From: Oscillospiraceae bacterium
Lineage (GTDB): Bacteria; Bacillota; Clostridia; Saccharofermentanales; Saccharofermentanaceae
DNA length: 64,000 nucleotides
NCBI GenBank assembly: GCA_902802325.1
Contig: CADCLV010000001.1
Span: forward strand, 1-64,000
Reading direction: 5' to 3'
Numbering within the stretch: the first letter of the stretch is position 1; every line of letters starts with the position of its first letter. The position numbers were made by a program, and so were the translations under genes. The notes beneath the pieces are model-generated. The model had not been told where the DNA came from, made no database searches, and was given only the letters and a program-made list of their open reading frames with translations. This document shows positions 47,937-62,236 of this stretch, piece after piece.

Positions 47937-48884
47937 ATGGAAAAGGAAAAGACGTTACCTACCGTAGGCAACGATATGCAAACACTGATCAACAAGGCGG
48001 CGACACTGATCGAGGCGCTGCCGTATATCCAGAGTCTGGCCGGTAAGACCATTGTCATTAAGTACGGCGGAAACGCCATGGTCAATGACGAGCTGAAGTC
48101 TTCTGTTATGGATGACATCGCGCTTTTGAAGTCTGTCGGCATTAACCCGGTACTCGTCCACGGCGGCGGGCCGGATATCAGTAATATGCTGAAGACCCTG
48201 AACGTGGAATCCCACTTCGTAAACGGTCTTCGTGTCACCGATGCCAAGGTTATGAGCGTGGCGCAGATGGTCCTGGTCGGCAAGACCAATAAGGAGATCG
48301 TTTCCTATCTCGGCCAGAAAGGTGTCAAAGCGATCGGTATCAGCGGCATCGACGGCCACCTGATCGAGTGCGAAAAGCTGACTGAGGATGCCAACGGCAA
48401 TCCCATCGACGTCGGATTTGTCGGAAAGATCAAGAGCATCAACACGAAGGTCATCTCGACTCTCGCCAACGACGAATATATTCCGGTCGTAGCGCCGATC
48501 GGTATCGGCTCTGACGGTGAAAGCTATAACATCAATGCCGACACTGTAGCCGCCGAGATCGCAGTTGCATTGAAGGCAGAAAAACTGATGACTCTGACTG
48601 ATGTGGAAGGTGTTAAAGCCATTCAGGAGGACGGCACCGAGAAGGTATTGCCGGTGCTGACCGAATCCGATATCCACAATATGATCGATTCCGGAGTGAT
48701 CACCGGCGGAATGATCCCGAAGGTAACGGGATGTCTGGATACGATCCGACGAGGAGTGGGCCGTGCGCATATTATCGATGGCCGTATCCCCCACAGTATC
48801 CTTTTGGAGATCTTCACCGGCAAGGGTATCGGCACCATGATCATCAAAGAGCGCAAGCCCTATTTTGACGGAGAAAAGATCTAA
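47937..48884 (+). CDS. argB: Acetylglutamate kinase
   Basis: 315 aa. It phosphorylates N-acetylglutamate, the second step of arginine synthesis. [11 protein letters not shown] is the phosphate-binding start, [12 protein letters not shown] the acetylglutamate loop, and the C-terminal domain binds ATP. The N-terminus is extended by about 35 helical residues before the kinase core; such N-terminal helices are found in arginine-sensitive hexameric enzymes, so feedback inhibition is likely. AGAGG precedes the ATG. It is the first gene of argB-argD-argF-GNAT. Confidence 0.96.
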
Positions 48885-48935
48885 ATGCAGCCTTCCGGTG
48901 CATTTACCGGAGAAACAAAATAAGAGGAATTCATT

Positions 48936-50150
48936 ATGGACGAGAAACAAGATATCAAACTCAAAGAGATCTCTACCTGGGACGAGAATTACTACATGGC
49001 CTGCTTCGGAAAGCGGGTACCGCTGGTCGTAGATCACGGTAAGGGCGTCTATCTTTACGGCACCGACGGAAAGAAGTATATGGACATGATCGGCGGAATC
49101 GCCGTCAACACACTTGGCCACGGTAACGGAAGACTGGTCAGGGCCATTTCTTCTCAGGCAAAGAAGGTCATTCATTGCTGTAACTACTACTATAACGAGC
49201 CGCAGACACTTCTGGCAAAAAAGCTTGTGGAGATGAGCTTTGCCGATAAGGCTTTCTTTGCCAACTCCGGCGCGGAAGCGAACGAAGGCGCAATCAAGCT
49301 GGCCCGCGGGTACTGGTATAAGAAAGGCACTCCGAAGCCGAAGATCATTACGGCTACCATGTCCTTCCACGGACGGACCATGGCCACCATTGCCGCTACC
49401 GGCCAGGAAAAGTTCCGGATTCCTTTCGGACCGGTAACACCTGGTTTCGAATATGTTCCCTATAACAATTTTGAAGCGATCAAGAAGGCCGCTGACAGCG
49501 AGACCGGCGCCATTATGCTGGAGCTCATCCAGGGTGAAAGCGGTGTGCACCCGGCCGACTTCGAGTACGTGCAGGCCGTCAGAAAGTTCTGCACCCAGAA
49601 CAACATCCTTCTTATCATCGATGAAGTTCAGACAGGCGTAGGCCATACCGGTACATTCTTCGCATACGAACAGTACGGCATCCAGCCGGATATCCTGACT
49701 CTGGCAAAGGGTCTGGCCGGCGGTGTGCCGATCGGTGCAGTACTGGCAAATAAGATGGCTGCCACCGGTTTTGGCCCCGGCGATCACGGTTCCACATTCG
49801 GCGGAAACCCGCTGGCTTGCGCGGCCGGTCTTGCCGTTCTGGAAGAAATCGAGTCGAAAGGACTTCTTTCCAACGTCATGAATGTCGGCGCATACGTCCA
49901 GAAAAAACTGAATTCGGTCGGCAAGAAGACCAAGCGCATCGCGGAAGTACGTGGCAAGGGACTTTTGATCGGTATCGAACTGGAGTCCGGTTCGGCCGCC
50001 GATGTAAAGATGAAGCTTTTTGAAAAAGGCTATCTGGTCAGCTCGATCGGTTCTAATGTGATCCGTATCGCCCCGCCGCTCAACATTTCGAAATTCCACG
50101 TTATCAAATTCATTTCTGCTCTGCAGGATGTTCTCGAAGGAAAGGAGTAA
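48936..50150 (+). CDS. argD: Acetylornithine aminotransferase
   Basis: 404 aa, a class III PLP-dependent enzyme that makes N-acetylornithine from the semialdehyde and glutamate. FANSGAEANEGAIKLARG binds the PLP phosphate, the Asp in IIDEVQTGVGHTG holds the pyridine nitrogen, and LTLAKGLAGGVPIGAV has the Schiff-base Lys. AAGAGG lies upstream of the ATG, 51 nt after argB. ArgD can also serve lysine synthesis in some bacteria. Confidence 0.95.
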   Translation: MDEKQDIKLKEISTWDENYYMACFGKRVPLVVDHGKGVYLYGTDGKKYMDMIGGIAVNTLGHGNGRLVRAISSQAKKVIHCCNYYYNEPQTLLAKKLVEMSFADKAFFANSGAEANEGAIKLARGYWYKKGTPKPKIITATMSFHGRTMATIAATGQEKFRIPFGPVTPGFEYVPYNNFEAIKKAADSETGAIMLELIQGESGVHPADFEYVQAVRKFCTQNNILLIIDEVQTGVGHTGTFFAYEQYGIQPDILTLAKGLAGGVPIGAVLANKMAATGFGPGDHGSTFGGNPLACAAGLAVLEEIESKGLLSNVMNVGAYVQKKLNSVGKKTKRIAEVRGKGLLIGIELESGSAADVKMKLFEKGYLVSSIGSNVIRIAPPLNISKFHVIKFISALQDVLEGKE

Positions 50151-50156
50151 ACACAT

Positions 50157-51089
50157 ATGAAGCACTACATTGATTTTCACGAAGACGTTACTATTCCGGA
50201 GCTGGACGCACTTTTGAACACTGCGCTGGATCTCAAGGATAAGACGAAAAAGGGGATTCCTCATCCGATCCTTGCCGGAAAAACACTGGGCATGATCTTT
50301 ACCAAGTCTTCTACAAGAACCCGTGTTTCCTTTGAAGTTGGCATGTATCAGCTGGGCGGTCACGCTCTTTTCCTCAGTGGCGACGATATTCAGATCGGCC
50401 GTGGTGAGACGATCTACGATACTGCCAATGTTCTTTCCAGAATGGTAGACGGTATCATGATCCGCACCTTCTCCCATCAGGACATTGTGGATCTGGCCAA
50501 ATACGGTTCGGTCCCGGTTATCAACGGTCTTTCCGACGACCAGCATCCGACACAGGTACTTGCAGATCTTCTGACCATCAAGGAGCATAAGGGTGACCTT
50601 AAGGGCTTAAAACTGGCGTATGTCGGTGACGGCAACAATATGGCCAACTCCCTTCTTCACGCCTGCGCGAAAGCCGGAATGGATATCTCCGTTGCTTCTC
50701 CGAAAGACTATACCTGCCCAGAGAAATATGTTCTTCAGGCTCAGGAAGATGCGAAGATCACCGGTTCCAAGATCGTTATGACCGAGGATCCGTATGTAGC
50801 CTGCAAAGACGCCGATGTTATTTATACTGATACCTGGGCCAGCATGGGTCAGGAATCTGAAAAGGCAATGCGCGCCAAGATCTTCAAGGATTATCAGGTG
50901 AATTCCGACCTGTTCGCTGTCGCCGATAAGGATGCGATCTTCCTTCACTGTCTGCCGGCTTACCGGGGATATGAAGTCACCGAAGATATCATCGATGGTC
51001 CTCGTTCCTTCGTATTTGACGAAGCGGAAAACCGTCTGCATGCCCATAAGGCGATCCTGGTTCATCTGATGAGTGAGCAGTATGCCTGA
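50157..51089 (+). CDS. argF: Ornithine carbamoyltransferase
   Basis: 310 aa. It forms citrulline from ornithine and carbamoyl phosphate. KSSTRTRVSFEVGMYQLGG has the STRTR carbamoyl-phosphate loop, HPTQVLADLLTIKEH the second part, and HCLPAYRGYEVT the HCLP motif. It lies 6 nt after argD, with AAGGAG inside the argD end as ribosome binding site. Being with argB and argD under ArgR-type boxes, it is taken as the anabolic enzyme rather than catabolic ArcB. Confidence 0.96.
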   Translation: MKHYIDFHEDVTIPELDALLNTALDLKDKTKKGIPHPILAGKTLGMIFTKSSTRTRVSFEVGMYQLGGHALFLSGDDIQIGRGETIYDTANVLSRMVDGIMIRTFSHQDIVDLAKYGSVPVINGLSDDQHPTQVLADLLTIKEHKGDLKGLKLAYVGDGNNMANSLLHACAKAGMDISVASPKDYTCPEKYVLQAQEDAKITGSKIVMTEDPYVACKDADVIYTDTWASMGQESEKAMRAKIFKDYQVNSDLFAVADKDAIFLHCLPAYRGYEVTEDIIDGPRSFVFDEAENRLHAHKAILVHLMSEQYA

Positions 51090-53445: not shown

Positions 53446-53709
53446 TCAGCTGGCCTGTGTCTCAGCAACTGTGGAGATGTGTACAGCCTTGGTCAGTACA
53501 TCGATGTAGCTGTAGGAGACAGTCTCCTGCGAAGAAGCGACACGCTTTCTATCGCACTTTACGGTGAACATGTTGGGATAGCAGTGATCTAAAATACCCT
53601 CATGAACAATGATTCTTTTTCTTCCGCCATTCGAAGTGAGTCGGACCGTGCGGCCGATATATGATTCAAGATTCTTCTTGCACGCTTCCACGTCTGATTT
53701 AATAATCAC
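53446..53709 (-). CDS. veg: Veg family protein
   Basis: 87 aa, starting at a GTG at 53709 with GGAGG 8 nt upstream. An in-frame ATG at 53730 would place this site inside the gene and is rejected. The protein is the short SH3-like Veg fold: SYIGRTVRLTSNGGRKRIIV, then GILDHCYPNMFTVK. In B. subtilis Veg promotes biofilm matrix expression; its wide spread suggests a more basic role. It has a consensus promoter and a terminator and is followed by ispE. Confidence 0.93.
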   Translation of the reverse strand: MIIKSDVEACKKNLESYIGRTVRLTSNGGRKRIIVHEGILDHCYPNMFTVKCDRKRVASSQETVSYSYIDVLTKAVHISTVAETQAS

Positions 53710-53761
53710 TGGTCTGTACCTCCATTTCATCCAATAAAAGGAAAAAACCTACTGTTACGAA

Positions 53762-53907: not shown

Positions 53908-53936
53908 TTGGCATGGGTAATGGGAAAGCATATAAT
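53908..53936 (+). promoter_or_regulatory. Promoter of fhs
   Basis: TTGGCA, 17-nt spacer, TATAAT, about 78 nt before the fhs ATG. The 283-nt veg-fhs space otherwise holds the veg promoter and no gene. Confidence 0.8.
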
Positions 53937-54013: not shown

Positions 54014-55684
54014 ATGCTGAGTGATATTGAGATCGCACGTAATGCAAAGATGCTGCCTATTGAAGACATCGCCGCCAAGCTGGACATTTCCAGAGATGAT
54101 CTGGAATTCTACGGAAAATACAAGGCCAAACTTCCGCTTCGCCTTCTGAAAGATCGCAAGGATAAAAAAGACGGAAAGCTGGTTTTAGTTACCGCAATGA
54201 ACCCGACTCCGGCCGGTGAGGGAAAAACCACCGTCAGTATCGGTCTGGCTCAGGCTCTGAACAAGCTGGATAAGAAAGCCATGCTGGCCCTTCGTGAACC
54301 TTCTCTGGGTCCGGTATTCGGCATTAAGGGCGGTGCCGCCGGCGGCGGATACTCCCAGGTCGTTCCTATGGACGATATCAACCTGCACTTTACCGGTGAC
54401 CTTCACGCCATCACTTCCGCCAATAATCTTCTGGCGGCCATGATCGATAATCACCTGTATCAGGGAAATGAACTGAATCTGGATAAAGACCGCATCCTCT
54501 GGAAGCGTTGTCTGGATATGAACGACCGTGCTCTCCGCAGCTTGCATCTGGGCGTGGGCGGCGGCGTCAACGGCGTACCGAGAAACGAAGTTTTCTCCAT
54601 CACCGCTGCATCTGAGATCATGGCGATCCTGTGTCTTTCTTCCGATATGGAAGACCTGAAAAAGCGTCTGGCGAATATCGCCATCGCCTATGACATGGAC
54701 GGCAATATCGTCCGCGCCAGTGCATTACACGCAGAAGGCGCCATGAGCGTTCTTCTCAAAGATGCCATCTGCCCGAACCTTGTCCAGTCCCTGGAGCACA
54801 CACCGGCTCTGATCCACGGCGGCCCGTTCGCAAATATTGCCCACGGCTGTAACAGCGTCATCGCCACCAAGATGGCCCTGAAGTTTTCCGACATCGTGGT
54901 AACGGAAGCAGGATTCGGTGCTGACTTAGGTGCCGAGAAGTTCCTGGATATCAAGTGCCGTACTGCCGGCATCTGGCCAAATGCAGTTGTGATCGTGGCA
55001 ACAGTCCGTTCTTTGAAATATAATGCCGGCATTCCGAAAGAAGAGCTGAATAAGCCGAATGCCGAGGCGGTAGCCGCCGGTTTCCCGAACCTTGCCAAGC
55101 ATATTGAAAATATCTTAAGTTACGGAATCCCGTGCGTTGTTGCCAGCAACCAGTTCCTCACCGATACAGAAGAAGAACTGGAGACACTGCGCCGTCTCTG
55201 TGAAGAAAAGGGTGCCAAATTTGCCCCGGCTCAGATTTTTGCCAAGGGCGGCGAAGGCGGAATCGAACTGGCCAACGCAGTACTGGAAGCCATTGAGACT
55301 CCAAGCGAGGGCCCGCATTACATGTACGAGCTGGATATGCCGGTAAAAAAGAAGATCGAAGCGGTTGCCAAGAATATCTATGGTGCCGCTAACGTCGAGA
55401 TCCTGCCGGAAGCGCAAAAGAAGATCGAAGACTTTACCAAAGCCGGATTCGGTAACGTTCCGGTATGTATCGCCAAGACACAGTATTCTCTGTCGGATAA
55501 CCTGAAAGTCCTTGGCCGTCCGGAAGGATTTACCCTTACCGTACGTGATATCTGGCTGTCCGCCGGCGCCGGCTTCCTGGTTGCTCTGACCGGGGCCATC
55601 GTGACCATGCCCGGTCTTCCGAAGCACCCGGCAGCCATGGACATTGATATTGATGCAAATGGCGTCATCGAAGGACTGTTCTGA
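54014..55684 (+). CDS. fhs: Formate-tetrahydrofolate ligase
   Basis: 556 aa, full length. It makes 10-formyl-THF from formate, THF and ATP, for one-carbon metabolism or acetogenic and purinolytic routes in Clostridia. The P-loop is [38 protein letters not shown] is the formate/ATP region and [13 protein letters not shown] is a family signature. GAGGGACGAGT precedes the ATG. It is followed after 6 nt by a beta-lactamase-like gene. Confidence 0.97.
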
Positions 55685-55690
55685 TCTTTC

Positions 55691-57016
55691 ATGAAGAATC
55701 CGAAAAGCAACTATATCGCGGACGCGAGACGTATACGGAGAAACCGGCTGATCATCCGTGGCATCATCATTGGCGTGGTGGCACTGGTGGTCGGCTTTTC
55801 CCTGTTTTTCTCGTATATTCTGAATCTGAAAAAGGATATCGATTCAGAGTTCTCCGGATCAGACAGTACCCCTACCCGGCTCCCTTCTACAGAAGATACA
55901 GGGTCTTCCGTTGACAGTACTTCCGAAATGACCACCACACCGCCTTCCGAAGAAGCATCGGAGACAACTCCGGAAGATACCTCTTCCGAGGAGACTTCTG
56001 AAACCGGAGAGACCGGCGATACCAGTGAAACCGAAGAGACGGCGATCGAGACGAATAACACTGAAGATGTCACCCCGACAGATGAAAATGGCAATCCGAT
56101 CCCGGAAACCACGACCATTTCCCTTCTGCCGGATGAACCGGAAGAAAGAGACCCGGTCCTTTTCCCGGAAAAGTATCCTCTTCAGACCGTAACTCATGCC
56201 CAGCGCGACCAGTCCTATGCAAACATGAAGCATGCCGTTAAGAAATATGTGGAAGAAAAGACCGGCGCCCGTATCGGCTTCTACTACATTAACCTTCGCA
56301 CCAGTGAAGCATTCGGTTATAACGAATCCTCGCCTTTTGTCGTAGGTTCGTCCATCTATCTTCCCCTCTCCATGCTGTACTATGACGATGTCCGTGCCGG
56401 CACCCAGTCGCCGAGCACCGTCGTCCCGTTCCACCCTTCTTATGTGGAGGAAGGTACTTTCTCCAATCTTTCCGATATGCCGGACGAAAAGCAGTTCTAC
56501 ATGGGACAGCTGGTTTACCTGGCCCTTCGGGACGGAGACGGAGTGGCCATGAATATGATTCTGGATCACATGGGCGGCGCTGACAATGTCATCTCCCGCC
56601 TTACCGGTATGACCACCTGCATCGACTATGCCACCGTGCAGAATTATGTGGACTTCCAGGGAATACAGCAGTCCGGCGAGCACCGTTCTTCCGCCTACGA
56701 TCTGGCCTCTTATGCCGAGGTCCTTTATTGGAAATATATGTCTTATCCGCAGGATTATCAGGAACTGATCAATGCACTGGGAGAAAGCGATCCTCATTCC
56801 GGTGTCGGAAAGGGATTCCCGTCTGACACACTGATCCTCCACCGCGGCGGTAAGAATTTAGATTTTAACAGTGCCGCGGATGTGGCGATCATATTGTCGG
56901 ATGAACCTGTCATCATTGCCGTCACAGTAGAGGCTTCTACTCCTGAAGAAACACAGGAGATCCAGTCTGCACTGGGTGCGCTGGTATATAATTTCATCAG
57001 CTACTGTCACGCGTAA
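55691..57016 (+). CDS. Membrane-anchored beta-lactamase-fold protein with degenerate active site
   Basis: 441 aa. A basic head, a membrane segment (about 22-45), a Thr/Glu/Ser-rich linker (about 56-160) and a C-terminal class A beta-lactamase-like domain (about 170-441). The SxxK motif reads Ser220-Ser-Ile-Tyr223, so Lys is replaced by Tyr; the SDN position reads GDG (282-284); the KTG position reads RGG. The fold is recognisable from PFVVGSSIYLPLSMLYYDDV and ALRDGDGVAMNMILDHMGG. It is unlikely to hydrolyse beta-lactams and may bind wall components. It follows fhs by 6 nt and precedes the SRP RNA. Confidence 0.8.
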   Translation: MKNPKSNYIADARRIRRNRLIIRGIIIGVVALVVGFSLFFSYILNLKKDIDSEFSGSDSTPTRLPSTEDTGSSVDSTSEMTTTPPSEEASETTPEDTSSEETSETGETGDTSETEETAIETNNTEDVTPTDENGNPIPETTTISLLPDEPEERDPVLFPEKYPLQTVTHAQRDQSYANMKHAVKKYVEEKTGARIGFYYINLRTSEAFGYNESSPFVVGSSIYLPLSMLYYDDVRAGTQSPSTVVPFHPSYVEEGTFSNLSDMPDEKQFYMGQLVYLALRDGDGVAMNMILDHMGGADNVISRLTGMTTCIDYATVQNYVDFQGIQQSGEHRSSAYDLASYAEVLYWKYMSYPQDYQELINALGESDPHSGVGKGFPSDTLILHRGGKNLDFNSAADVAIILSDEPVIIAVTVEASTPEETQEIQSALGALVYNFISYCHA

Positions 57017-57049: not shown

Positions 57050-57189
57050 GTCCCGGCTGGTCTACAGTTGGCGGTGGGTCTTGTGCGATGCGAGCCTGTG
57101 AACCCTGTCAGGTCCGGAAGGAAGCAGCAGTAAGCGGTCACTTGCATGTGCCGCAAGGGTGCTTGCCCCGACTGTAGTCCAGCCGGGAC
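57050..57189 (+). ncRNA. ffs: Signal recognition particle RNA (bacterial small type)
   Basis: About 140 nt. The apical part GTCAGGTCCGGAAGGAAGCA is the Ffh-binding symmetric and asymmetric loop with the GGAA tetraloop of domain IV. The two ends pair over a long helix (GTCCCGGCTGG... with ...CCAGCCGGGAC). A run of six T follows (57192-57197). It partners Ffh for co-translational membrane targeting. It lies directly before dnaX, the usual place in many bacteria. The exact ends are estimated. Confidence 0.95.
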
Positions 57190-57229
57190 GATTTTTTATC
57201 TGGTACGGAATCGGATGAGGAGGGACGTT

Positions 57230-59254
57230 ATGGAACACGTTGCACTGTACAGGCTCTACCGCCCTATGAATTTCGATGATATCGTCGAACAGGAGCATGC
57301 GGTTTCCGCCCTACGTCAATCTGTTCTCTCCGGAAAGATCGGTCACGCCTATCTTTTCTGCGGTACACGAGGCACCGGTAAGACCTCTATTGCGAAAGTC
57401 TTCTCCCGTGCGATCAACTGTCTGCATCCGGTCAACGGCAATCCCTGCAATGAATGTGAGATCTGTAAAGGCGTCATCGACGGCTCTCTTCTTGATGTCA
57501 TTGAAATGGATGCCGCCAGTAATAACAGCGTAGATAATATCCGCCGGATCTGTGACGAAGTCATGTTCATGCCGGCCAAAGCGAAATATAAAGTGTACAT
57601 CATCGACGAGGTACACATGCTCTCCACCGGTGCATTTAACGCTCTTCTGAAAACGCTGGAAGAACCTCCGGCCCACGCCGTATTCCTTCTGGCCACCACA
57701 GAACCGCACCGCATCCCGGCAACGATCCTTTCCCGTTGTCAGAGATATGATTTCCGCAGAATTCCCAGTGAAAGCATCGTAAAGCGCCTGGGATATATCG
57801 CCCAGAAACAGAATATCGCCATTGAGCAGGACGCGCTTTCGGCCATCGCCTCCATCGGAGACGGCGCCCTTCGTGACTCCATTTCTCTTCTGGATCAGGT
57901 CAGTACCACTTCAAACGGAAAGACCATTACCAGAGATGACATTCTCCGGATCACCGGCATTGTCGATGAAGCATTCCTTCATCAGTTCGCTTCCGCCATT
58001 TTGGAAGGCCGGGCGGCAGATCTTCTTCCGCTTTGCAAAGAGCTGACTATGGACGGTCGGGATCTGATCCGTTTTACGCTGGATCTGGCCCAGTATTTCA
58101 GAAACATCCTGGTTACTCAGGTATCGGCGAATCCTCAGGCCCTGATCGAGTCCACCTCGGCAGCGATCGCACAGATGCGCGACCTGGGCAGACGCACAGA
58201 TACAGCCACGATCCTGTTTTTTATCACCCGGCTTTCAGATCTTGCCGGAGAACTGAAATGGTCCCCTTCTGCCAGGACCTCATTTGAGATCATGATGCTT
58301 CGTCTGGCATCCCGCGGAAATAAGATCATTCCGGCAGTCGTGCCGGCTAAAGAAGCTGTAGCAGCACCAAGCCCGGCTCCTGCTCCTCAGGCAGTGGCAG
58401 CTCCGGCTGCACCCGCACCTTCACCGGCTCCCGTTCCGGTTTCAGAACCAAAGCCTGAGCCGAAAAAGGAAGAACCTAAACCGGCCCCCAAAGCCGAAGA
58501 GGATGTTATGCCCCCGCCTCCGGTAGTCGATGACCTGATGACACCGCCTCCGGCTCCGGACATGGACTTTATGGTCCCGCCGCCGCTTCCGGAAGATGCG
58601 CCAGAGGAAGAGGATATCCCCCTTCCGCCACCACCGCCGACCGTAGAGGAACTGGCACATACACAGCCATCCTCGCCGAACCTTCACAGGGCTTTTTCAT
58701 CCGATCATGTCAACGAAGGCCAGAGAACCAATCTGGCAAAGGCCGTAAAAGAACCGGAAGTACGGGCGCCGCAGATGCCATCCGACATTCTGATGCCGGA
58801 TGGAGTGGAAGCTCCCAAACGGGAAGCCGCGCCGGTATCGAACCTAAAGCAGGTCATGCGGCATGGCAACGGTGACGAATGTGATTCCGCCAGAAGAGAA
58901 TTCATGGATTACCTGAAGGTGGAGCACACTTTTGAATATATGTACATGGGAGACTCCAAGGTCTTCTGGCAGGATCAGACAGTCTGGTGCATTATGCCGG
59001 ACAGTTTTGCCGCTACGATCAACGATGTCCGTGACAACGCGATCATTATTACACAGCTCCTGAAGATCTGTCAGAAATATGAACCGGCACTTCTTCATGT
59101 ACGGGTCGCAACCCAGAAAGAATATGAAGCTTCGGGAAATGCACCGGTCAAGGAGGAATCCAATCAGGGAAACACCCGTCCGGACTGGGTAAAAGCCGTA
59201 GAAGATGTTTCTGAAAAGAACGGGATCACATTGACACATGTCAAGGATCTGTAA
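57230..59254 (+). CDS. dnaX: DNA polymerase III subunit gamma/tau
   Basis: 674 aa from the ATG at 57230 (GAGGAGG 6 nt upstream); longer reading would run into the SRP RNA. The AAA+ clamp loader motor has Walker A GTRGTGKT (45-52), zinc Cys 64, 73, 76 and 79, Walker B IIDEVHML and the SRC motif (LSRCQRYDF). A Pro/Ala/Glu-rich linker (about 390-520) leads to a C-terminal tau-like domain. It loads the beta clamp and joins polymerases. It forms dnaX-ybaB-recR. Confidence 0.97.
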   Translation: MEHVALYRLYRPMNFDDIVEQEHAVSALRQSVLSGKIGHAYLFCGTRGTGKTSIAKVFSRAINCLHPVNGNPCNECEICKGVIDGSLLDVIEMDAASNNSVDNIRRICDEVMFMPAKAKYKVYIIDEVHMLSTGAFNALLKTLEEPPAHAVFLLATTEPHRIPATILSRCQRYDFRRIPSESIVKRLGYIAQKQNIAIEQDALSAIASIGDGALRDSISLLDQVSTTSNGKTITRDDILRITGIVDEAFLHQFASAILEGRAADLLPLCKELTMDGRDLIRFTLDLAQYFRNILVTQVSANPQALIESTSAAIAQMRDLGRRTDTATILFFITRLSDLAGELKWSPSARTSFEIMMLRLASRGNKIIPAVVPAKEAVAAPSPAPAPQAVAAPAAPAPSPAPVPVSEPKPEPKKEEPKPAPKAEEDVMPPPPVVDDLMTPPPAPDMDFMVPPPLPEDAPEEEDIPLPPPPPTVEELAHTQPSSPNLHRAFSSDHVNEGQRTNLAKAVKEPEVRAPQMPSDILMPDGVEAPKREAAPVSNLKQVMRHGNGDECDSARREFMDYLKVEHTFEYMYMGDSKVFWQDQTVWCIMPDSFAATINDVRDNAIIITQLLKICQKYEPALLHVRVATQKEYEASGNAPVKEESNQGNTRPDWVKAVEDVSEKNGITLTHVKDL

Positions 59255-60970: not shown

Positions 60971-61231
60971 TTAGCCGATGAGCCGGATCATAAACCGGTC
61001 AAAGGGGACTTTGTCAGAAAACTGATCGTCGAAGAAAGTGGTCTGGTGAAATGCCGCAAACTCTCTAGTATTCTTTGAAAGCCACAGAGGGAAAGGGACA
61101 TTCATTTCCCGGCAAAGACGGACCAGTGCCTCATCCAGTTCCTTTACGAAAGACACTTCCTGATGTGTATGTTCCACCACATGGATCTGAAGCACCGCAT
61201 TCATCTTAAAAGTTTTGCCCTCTAGCTGCAT
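60971..61231 (-). CDS. Small protein of unknown function
   Basis: 86 aa, from an ATG with GGAGAG 8 nt upstream (a later ATG at 61204 has GAGGG at 13 nt). No signal peptide or membrane segment. The sequence MNAVLQIHVVEHTHQEVSFV, then CREMNVPFPLWLSKNTREFA, suggests a small alpha/beta domain. It resembles short hypothetical proteins of other Clostridia as far as I recall, but no function is known to me. It precedes rqcP by 13 nt, so it may join ribosome quality control. It is divergent from the metalloprotease gene. Confidence 0.75.
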   Translation of the reverse strand: MQLEGKTFKMNAVLQIHVVEHTHQEVSFVKELDEALVRLCREMNVPFPLWLSKNTREFAAFHQTTFFDDQFSDKVPFDRFMIRLIG

Positions 61232-61354: not shown

Positions 61355-62236
61355 ATGAAACACGTTTTTGACGTCAACGCCAAGCGCGACATACCTTCCC
61401 GCACCTTGGACAAGCGGTATCCGATTTCGTATCCGCATCCGAACAAGGTGCCGATCCAGCTGATCCTGAACGGGAACAGCGTGCGTATCCGTGTCTTTGT
61501 CCGCTACTCTTCCAAAATGTTCCGCTACTACCCCGGCACCAATATCACCTATGCAGATGTGGCAGAAGCCGGGATCCGCAGAAACTGGTCCGGAAAATAC
61601 CCCATGTCCTGGCTGGAGGATGACGGCTATGAAATGTCCCGTGCCCACGCCAGTTACCGTGTACTGACCCAGGATAACAACCCTCTCGACGAGCAGATGC
61701 GTCCGGATCCGTCCTCGGCCCGTGTCACGCTGGAATTCATCCGCTATCAGACACCCCAGGCTGTAAATGACTATCCGCACCAGCGGTTTATCCGGGTCAA
61801 ACTTGCCTATTCCGACAACGCTGCCGGCCATGTGACCAGTTCTCTATGGCGCTGGGGATGGGGATTTCTGAAATCCTTCCAGCCTGAAGCCCTCACCTTA
61901 AACTGGTCCCGCACCCACCCGGGGATCGTTACGATCCGTCAGAGCGCCGACCGTCACACTTTCCAGCAGGAATGCGCGCATGAGTTCGGCCATCTTCTGG
62001 GTCTTGGCGATGCCTATGGCGCCAATTACCGCTTCTATTTTGAAGCCCCCGGAACCACAGATTTCATGATGAATCAGAACCGTCAGGTCAACCCGCAGGA
62101 GCTGGAAATGGTGCTGACTGCGCACCACTATAACCGCATGCAGTATTTCCCGAAACAGTTCCATCCCGGTACCTTCTTCCGTGGAATGCGCCGTCATTTC
62201 AAGGTTAATCATCCACCGAAACCCAGAAAAAAATGA
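61355..62236 (+). CDS. Metzincin-like zinc metalloprotease of unknown role
   Basis: 293 aa, no signal peptide or membrane segment, so apparently cytoplasmic. HEFGHLLGLGD (209-219) is a full HExxHxxGxxD site, with His209, His213 and Asp219 as zinc ligands and Glu210 as base; DFMMN (236-240) can be the Met-turn. The Asp as third ligand is seen in snapalysin-like and some uncharacterised families. The first 200 residues contain no other known domain and are rich in Tyr, Arg and Pro. It is a single gene between a divergent unknown gene and the HD protein gene. Confidence 0.75.
   Translation: MKHVFDVNAKRDIPSRTLDKRYPISYPHPNKVPIQLILNGNSVRIRVFVRYSSKMFRYYPGTNITYADVAEAGIRRNWSGKYPMSWLEDDGYEMSRAHASYRVLTQDNNPLDEQMRPDPSSARVTLEFIRYQTPQAVNDYPHQRFIRVKLAYSDNAAGHVTSSLWRWGWGFLKSFQPEALTLNWSRTHPGIVTIRQSADRHTFQQECAHEFGHLLGLGDAYGANYRFYFEAPGTTDFMMNQNRQVNPQELEMVLTAHHYNRMQYFPKQFHPGTFFRGMRRHFKVNHPPKPRKK

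Follow-up and report, generated by a model that had tools for sequence, protein, structure and literature searches.

The gene at 55691–57016 (+) of the window, a 64,000-nucleotide stretch of DNA from a bacterium of the order Saccharofermentanales, would be taken for a beta-lactamase family enzyme from its Pfam name alone. We propose that it likely encodes a tethered, non-catalytic protein that serves in wall binding or in sensing and that arose from a membrane-anchored DD-peptidase of PBP-A type. The sequences give good support to the loss of catalysis, and for the ligand and partner we infer the candidates discussed below. Comparison of orthologues showed that, as judged from substitution rates and residue states, purifying selection has kept the gene at a single locus even as one lineage after another exchanged catalytic residues. 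At this locus, a natural series leads from an enzyme to what is probably no longer one, with intact copies in a sister family and part-degenerate copies in three genera; the series ends in two differently remodelled states, in two larger genera.

Organization of the gene and its locus

The window genome belongs to genus g1 of one family of Saccharofermentanales (f1, comprising genera g1–g5), and f3 denotes the sister family. Members of f1 are rumen and gut bacteria, and 8 of the 14 named records come from ruminant rumen, omasum or reticulum. Syntenic copies that have lost catalytic residues, hereafter dead copies, span all five genera. The extent of the open reading frame proved to be exactly that given in the initial annotation (441 aa). 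The features of the gene and its surroundings are as follows:

53446–53730 (−): veg, divergent, upstream of fhs (neighbour annotation)
53908–53936 (+): promoter-like site before fhs (11/12 consensus; consensus match only)
54014–55684 (+): fhs, formate–tetrahydrofolate ligase, with its stop 6 nt before the dead gene
55691–57016 (+): whole gene, putative membrane-anchored pseudo-DD-peptidase, 441 aa (ORF call, translation, Pfam)
55691–55750 (+): predicted cytoplasmic tail MKNPKSNYIADARRIRRNRL (conservation; N-in orientation inferred from positive charges)
55754–55825 (+): transmembrane anchor, about residues 22–45 (sequence, hydropathy)
55832–56170 (+): Thr/Ser/Glu/Asp/Pro-rich stalk, about residues 48–160, some 110 residues (sequence, conservation)
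56192–57013 (+): class A beta-lactamase/PBP-A fold domain, about residues 168–441 (Pfam, AlphaFold2, Foldseek, structural alignment)
56348–56359 (+): former SxxK motif, now S220-S-I-Y223 (pairwise alignments, orthologue comparison)
56489–56491 (+): Lys267, new invariant Lys in the dead copies of g1 and g2 (orthologue columns)
56534–56542 (+): former SDN motif, now G282-D283-G284 (alignments, orthologue comparison)
56843–56851 (+): former KTG motif, now R385-G386-G387 (alignments, orthologue comparison)
57005–57007 (+): C-terminal Cys439 (orthologue columns)
57146–59254 (+): dnaX, downstream neighbour

The PF13354 (Beta-lactamase2) match covers residues 196–412 with 79 bits against a gathering cut-off of 22 (E 4.1e-22), and the NCBI curated class A model NF033103, whose cut-off is 200 bits, scored 56. 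The membrane anchor and Thr/Glu/Ser linker described in the initial annotation were both recovered. In the window protein, the anchor is preceded by RRIRRNR, and the stalk is acidic and Thr/Ser-rich.

The upstream side of the locus is well conserved. In 66/69 dead copies (23/23 in g1, 37/40 in g2 and 6/6 in g3–g5), fhs is the immediate upstream neighbour, on the same strand and no more than 100 nt away, and the gap between fhs and the gene is 5–7 nt throughout g1. In three g2 copies (L125, L127 and L129), fhs is gone from the block, yet veg and dnaX still flank the dead gene. Downstream, dnaX was found within 2 kb in 49/69 dead copies. The five g1 copies lacking it all end at a contig edge; because it is absent after the dead gene in 13/40 g2 copies, several of which have veg there, the downstream side is not fixed. 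No plus-strand terminator-like site was listed between the promoter-like site before fhs and the dead gene. A second, weaker promoter-like site lies within fhs, and chance matches of this kind are common (7 found, 3.7 expected).

Three other open frames of the window were recorded. A 293-aa ORF at 61355–62236 (+) contains a zinc-protease-like motif, HEFGHLLGLGD, and gave no Pfam match at 1e-3; it has a g2 counterpart near the same gene block (L051 198–965, 155 bits). An 86-aa ORF at 60971–61231 (−), also lacking a Pfam match, recurs beside S4 and DivIC genes at several g2 loci. The 877-aa open frame at 47955–50588 (−), antisense to argD, is probably a mechanical artefact.

Predicted fold and register of the catalytic motifs

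An AlphaFold2 model of the domain, generated from the window sequence and 14 orthologues, had a mean pLDDT of 84.9 and a pTM of 0.83, and the class A/PBP-A-like fold spans model residues 11–282. Foldseek placed 3cjm and PBP-A at the top ranks. Using VIA-align, the model superposed on 3cjm with Z 30.1 (rmsd 2.2 over 251 residues) and on PBP-A with Z 29.3 (rmsd 2.5 over 253 residues), and the rest of the 50 listed entries, further PBP-A entries aside, gave Z 27.0–28.8. The beta-lactamase-like fold initially read from the sequence is thus borne out by the predicted structure. Among the Foldseek matches listed was S. cacaoi BlaB (2wuq), a class A-like regulatory protein.

The closest match, 3cjm, is a putative beta-lactamase of Enterococcus faecalis (NP_815223.1); it is best both in fold and in sequence among PDB entries, but its residues opposite the degenerate motifs read ASTIK and SDN. 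PBP-A of Thermosynechococcus elongatus (2j7v, 2j8y) is described as a DD-carboxypeptidase/endopeptidase specific for amidated muropeptides, with active site residues Ser61-Lys64, Ser122-Asn124 and Lys219-Asp222 (PMC11189452). The likeness to PBP-A extends across the whole domain in fold, and the sequences match as well. Unlike PBP-A as that source presents it, the window protein has other residues in place of both lysines (SxxK and KTG) and of the SDN Ser and Asn, and carries an anchor, a tail and a long stalk.

SSIY (220–223) and GDG (282–284) were aligned to the catalytic motifs of both 3cjm and BlaC, and RGG (385–387) to the KTG position in the BlaC alignment only. This register agrees with the motif readings of the initial annotation. 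Its statement that all secondary motifs are lost holds for the SxxK Lys, the SDN Ser and Asn and the KTG Lys, which are all replaced, but not for Asp283 of SDN and Gly387 of KTG, which are retained, nor for the positive charge of the KTG Lys, which Arg385 preserves. No Glu was found opposite BlaC EEPEL, the omega-loop Glu166 site, in a stretch that is weakly aligned. An intact Ser-Lys-SDN-KTG set was sought elsewhere in the domain and none was seen. A relocated catalytic set was also rejected: the only Lys invariant in g1 and g2 and missing from the intact forms is Lys267, which is missing from g3–g5 too.

The window protein thus has the fold of class A beta-lactamases without their SxxK, SDN and K(T/S)G, and the fold of PBP-A-like DD-peptidases without their catalytic Ser-xx-Lys, SxN and KxG. 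Because these defining residues were looked for and are missing, we did not file it in either class. What fits is a probable beta-lactamase-fold pseudoenzyme: the residues are lost, intact relatives exist, and the loss is common to the orthologues.

Catalytic residue states and history of the dead copies

A total of 98 genomes were searched for the domain, 58 of which belong to f1, the window genome included. A match was found in 57/58 f1 genomes, the exception (G028) being 80% complete. The 69 syntenic dead copies comprise all 57 f1 copies and 12 further g2 copies (23 in g1, 40 in g2 and 6 in g3–g5). They were compared with 36 intact copies, namely 9 syntenic copies in f3 and 27 f1 paralogues (26 complete, 1 cut off).

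The SxxK motif is present in 9/9 syntenic copies of f3 and in 27/27 f1 paralogues, and its nucleophile-activating Lys is absent from 69/69 syntenic copies of f1, which supports the call of a pseudoenzyme made at first from one sequence. SDN is found in 0/23 g1, 1/40 g2 and 4/6 g3–g5 copies, compared with 9/9 in f3 and 27/27 paralogues. KxG is found in 0/23 g1, 0/40 g2 and 5/6 g3–g5 copies, the sixth being cut off, and in the intact groups in 9/9 f3 copies and 26/27 paralogues, one being cut off. In g1, 23/23 genomes combine Gly for the SDN Ser and Arg for the KTG Lys with the lack of the SxxK Lys, and because these agree, the degenerate motifs reflect neither chance nor sequencing error. Position 220 is Ser in 23/23 g1 copies, Gly in 39 and Phe in 1 of 40 g2 copies, and Gly in 4, Ala in 1 and Ser in 1 of the g3–g5 copies. 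Ser220 of the window gene may thus be a survivor or a reversion; with Gly at this position in most copies of the other genera, it qualifies neither as a conserved nucleophile nor as a trustworthy relic.

Outside the order, 20 of the 56 listed Clostridia matches were read, and SxxK, SDN and KxG were kept in 20/20; fhs, veg and dnaX were not seen in the few kilobases examined around these relatives. Two other arrangements were recorded. In family f42 (L156, L160), the intact domain lies inside proteins of about 835 residues, and the frame of one intact-type paralogue (L048, G016:C83) ends sooner than that of L046, with the rest of the domain matched nearby in another frame.

The main tree contained 66 rows, with the five catalytic columns removed, and was rooted on 20 other Clostridia (86/85). 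Dead f1 copies (99/100), intact f1 paralogues (99/93) and intact syntenic f3 copies (99/89) each formed a single clade, with the branching order of the three not resolved, and a quick tree of 105 rows gave the same three groups. The stem of the dead clade has 0.64 changes per column, compared with 0.13 and 0.09 for the intact clades. Within the dead clade, the first branch is the g3 copy, in which SDN and KTG are still present; g5 has SDN, g4 has SDA, and all complete g3–g5 copies retain KxG. g1 and g2 group together (95/81), both having lost SDN and the KTG lysine. Read off the tree, the stem probably saw the single loss of the SxxK Lys, with SDN and the KTG lysine following later. A single later loss does not account for the SDN of one g2 copy (L132).

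Based on the closest folds and on the intact, chromosomal, anchored relatives, the gene probably descends from a DD-peptidase of PBP-A type and not from an enzyme that destroyed antibiotics. In this point the initial annotation is amended; its pseudoenzyme is supported by the sequences, and the binding of wall material or a signalling ligand that it proposed is kept here as a candidate role.

Features of the dead copies and proposed function

Selection was examined in eight g1 pairs. Domain dN/dS was 0.057–0.144 in seven of them; the eighth has saturated dS, and two others have dS above 1.7. The tail is nearly invariant within g1, with dN = 0 in 6/8 pairs, and the stalk is looser (dN/dS 0.12–0.47 in the 7 computable pairs). 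A tail pattern (NP or DP, then K/T/V, with Arg further on), derived from these same data and scored over the 35 residues before the anchor, was present in 69/69 dead copies and 0/36 intact copies. Measured from the anchor end to column 172, the dead stalk is about twice as long as the intact one, with medians of 124 (g1), 99 (g2) and 104 (g3–g5) residues versus 52 (f3) and 58 (paralogues), and ranges of 93–146 versus 44–68.

Two candidate explanations for the N-terminal region were tried and rejected. The ARRIRR of the tail resembles SRxxR(R/K), given as a GpsB client tail motif in the source consulted (PMC6335420), but g2 tails lack that spacing. The DivIVA/GpsB family (PF05103) had no match in the window genome (G000, 95.6% complete), where a diverged homologue is possible, and matched in 7/14 control genomes. 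Such a missing match is unusual for a Gram-positive. A shared anchor module was discarded, as the first 41 residues match only the window gene in its own genome.

In the domain, Lys267 is present in 63/63 dead copies of g1 (23) and g2 (40), in 0/6 of g3–g5 and in 0/36 intact copies, which suggests that it was gained at about the time SDN and the KTG Lys disappeared. It presumably sits at the far end of the helix leading to SDN, away from the site, and we take it to be part of a new function. Lys or Arg makes up at least 80% of columns 172, 180, 184, 194, 235, 267, 303, 332, 374 and 385 in g1, and of columns 172, 180, 194, 267, 272 and 388 in g2. The C-terminal Cys439 is found in 65/68 dead copies reaching this stretch versus 3/35 intact copies. 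A disulfide was rejected for it, there being no second invariant Cys among 30 aligned rows.

Nine groove columns had a conservation of 0.899 in g1, attained by 1.5% of random sets of domain columns, versus 0.736 for such sets, and 0.844 versus 0.589 in g2 (0.045%), statistics that come from related, not independent, sequences. With the five replaced positions alone, the effect was weak (9.5% in g1, 4.9% in g2). A basic residue on the former KTG strand is kept at 385 or 388 in 62/68 dead copies (R385 in g1, K385 in g3–g5, R/K388 in g2), and neither position is basic in 6/40 g2 copies. At the KTG position of this fold, a basic residue recognises carboxylate, and the KTG-type lysine of Cpe, discussed below, is an example. 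Because this charge is kept, the surviving function that we favor would be for residue 385 or 388 to recognise a ligand ending in a carboxylate, for instance a stem peptide.

In the proposed mechanism, the domain would no longer cut or become acylated, and the flexible stalk, whose length would let it enter or cross the wall, would carry it outward. The reshaped groove would bind a wall-derived or peptide ligand, and the conserved cytoplasmic tail would relay binding or scaffold a partner. A bolder version, which we put forward only tentatively, is a family-wide receptor spanning the envelope, in which a non-catalytic pocket of PBP-A type, borne by a stalk as long as the wall is thick, would report the state of peptidoglycan stem peptides to the cytoplasm via the family-specific tail. 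The order of conversion would be preserved in the intermediate genera, SDN and the KTG Lys would have been lost together with the gain of Lys267, and the ligand-binding charge would have moved from 385 to 388 in one genus. The dead locus makes the function of a non-cutting DD-peptidase fold directly testable and provides a candidate envelope sensor in rumen bacteria.

Other explanations were weighed against the same data. The fold could be a mere scaffold in a structural spacer or surface adhesin, with the stalk and outer surface doing the work rather than the groove. The doubled stalk and the C-terminal Cys typical of dead copies fit such a role, but groove columns conserved above the domain average in both g1 and g2, if modestly for the replaced positions alone, make it unlikely. 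Altered catalysis, in which Ser220 with Tyr223 or another base (Lys267) would act in g1 as a slow esterase, amidase or acyl-trap, draws on the constancy of Ser220, Arg385 and Lys267 there (23/23 each). Position 223, however, offers no constant base (Tyr 18, His 3, Asp 1 and Asn 1 of 23), the SDN Ser is Gly in 23/23, and the nucleophile is dispensable in the family, only 1/6 g3–g5 copies and none in g2 having Ser at 220. As Lys267 is invariant in g2 as well (40/40), where there is no Ser220, it is not tied to the Ser, and we consider altered catalysis quite improbable.

The dead protein could also serve as an allosteric partner or decoy of an intact paralogue from another locus of its genome. 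At least one second domain match occurs in 20/23 g1 genomes, and the paralogues examined, two of them in the window genome, have intact motifs. In 28/28 g2 genomes, by contrast, the dead copy is the single match at the search threshold, so an intact paralogue is not an obligatory partner, and we rate this role as very improbable; weaker PF13354 matches to longer frames exist in g2. Pfam matches of seven neighbours of two intact paralogues indicated no shared pathway. Decay of a gene on its way out would account for the missing catalytic residues and the long stem branch, but it is practically ruled out by the low dN/dS and nearly invariant tail within g1, by presence in 57/58 f1 genomes and by the lack of stops inside the listed matches. 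The tethered, non-catalytic wall-binding or sensing protein thus remains our preferred reading.

Beta-lactamase-fold proteins lacking the motifs are already known from the sources consulted. MipB of Pseudomonas aeruginosa, a proposed co-sensor of polymyxins, is likewise an envelope-anchored beta-lactamase fold described as lacking SXXK and having degenerate second and third motifs; it differs in being compared with the class C AmpC and in being a lipoprotein with two extra C-terminal barrels (PMC10936184). Streptomyces class A homologues are marked as lacking SXXK, SDN and KTG in a presence/absence table, which in the available text comes without anchor or lineage analysis (PMC6273383). Cpe (ORF12) of Streptomyces clavuligerus resembles the window protein in that its class A-like domain does something other than destroy beta-lactams, and its KTG-type lysine is described as contacting the ligand carboxylate, but its SXXK and SDN are intact and needed, and it is cytoplasmic (PMC6478378). 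RgsM was rejected as a precedent, as the degenerate site in that account belongs to RgsP (PMC6107284). Our literature search found no paper naming this protein family, which does not prove it unpublished. Compared with MipB and the Streptomyces homologues, what appears to be new is that an enzyme of PBP-A type lost its catalytic residues across a whole family at a single locus, where intermediates survive, a tail was gained and the stalk became longer.
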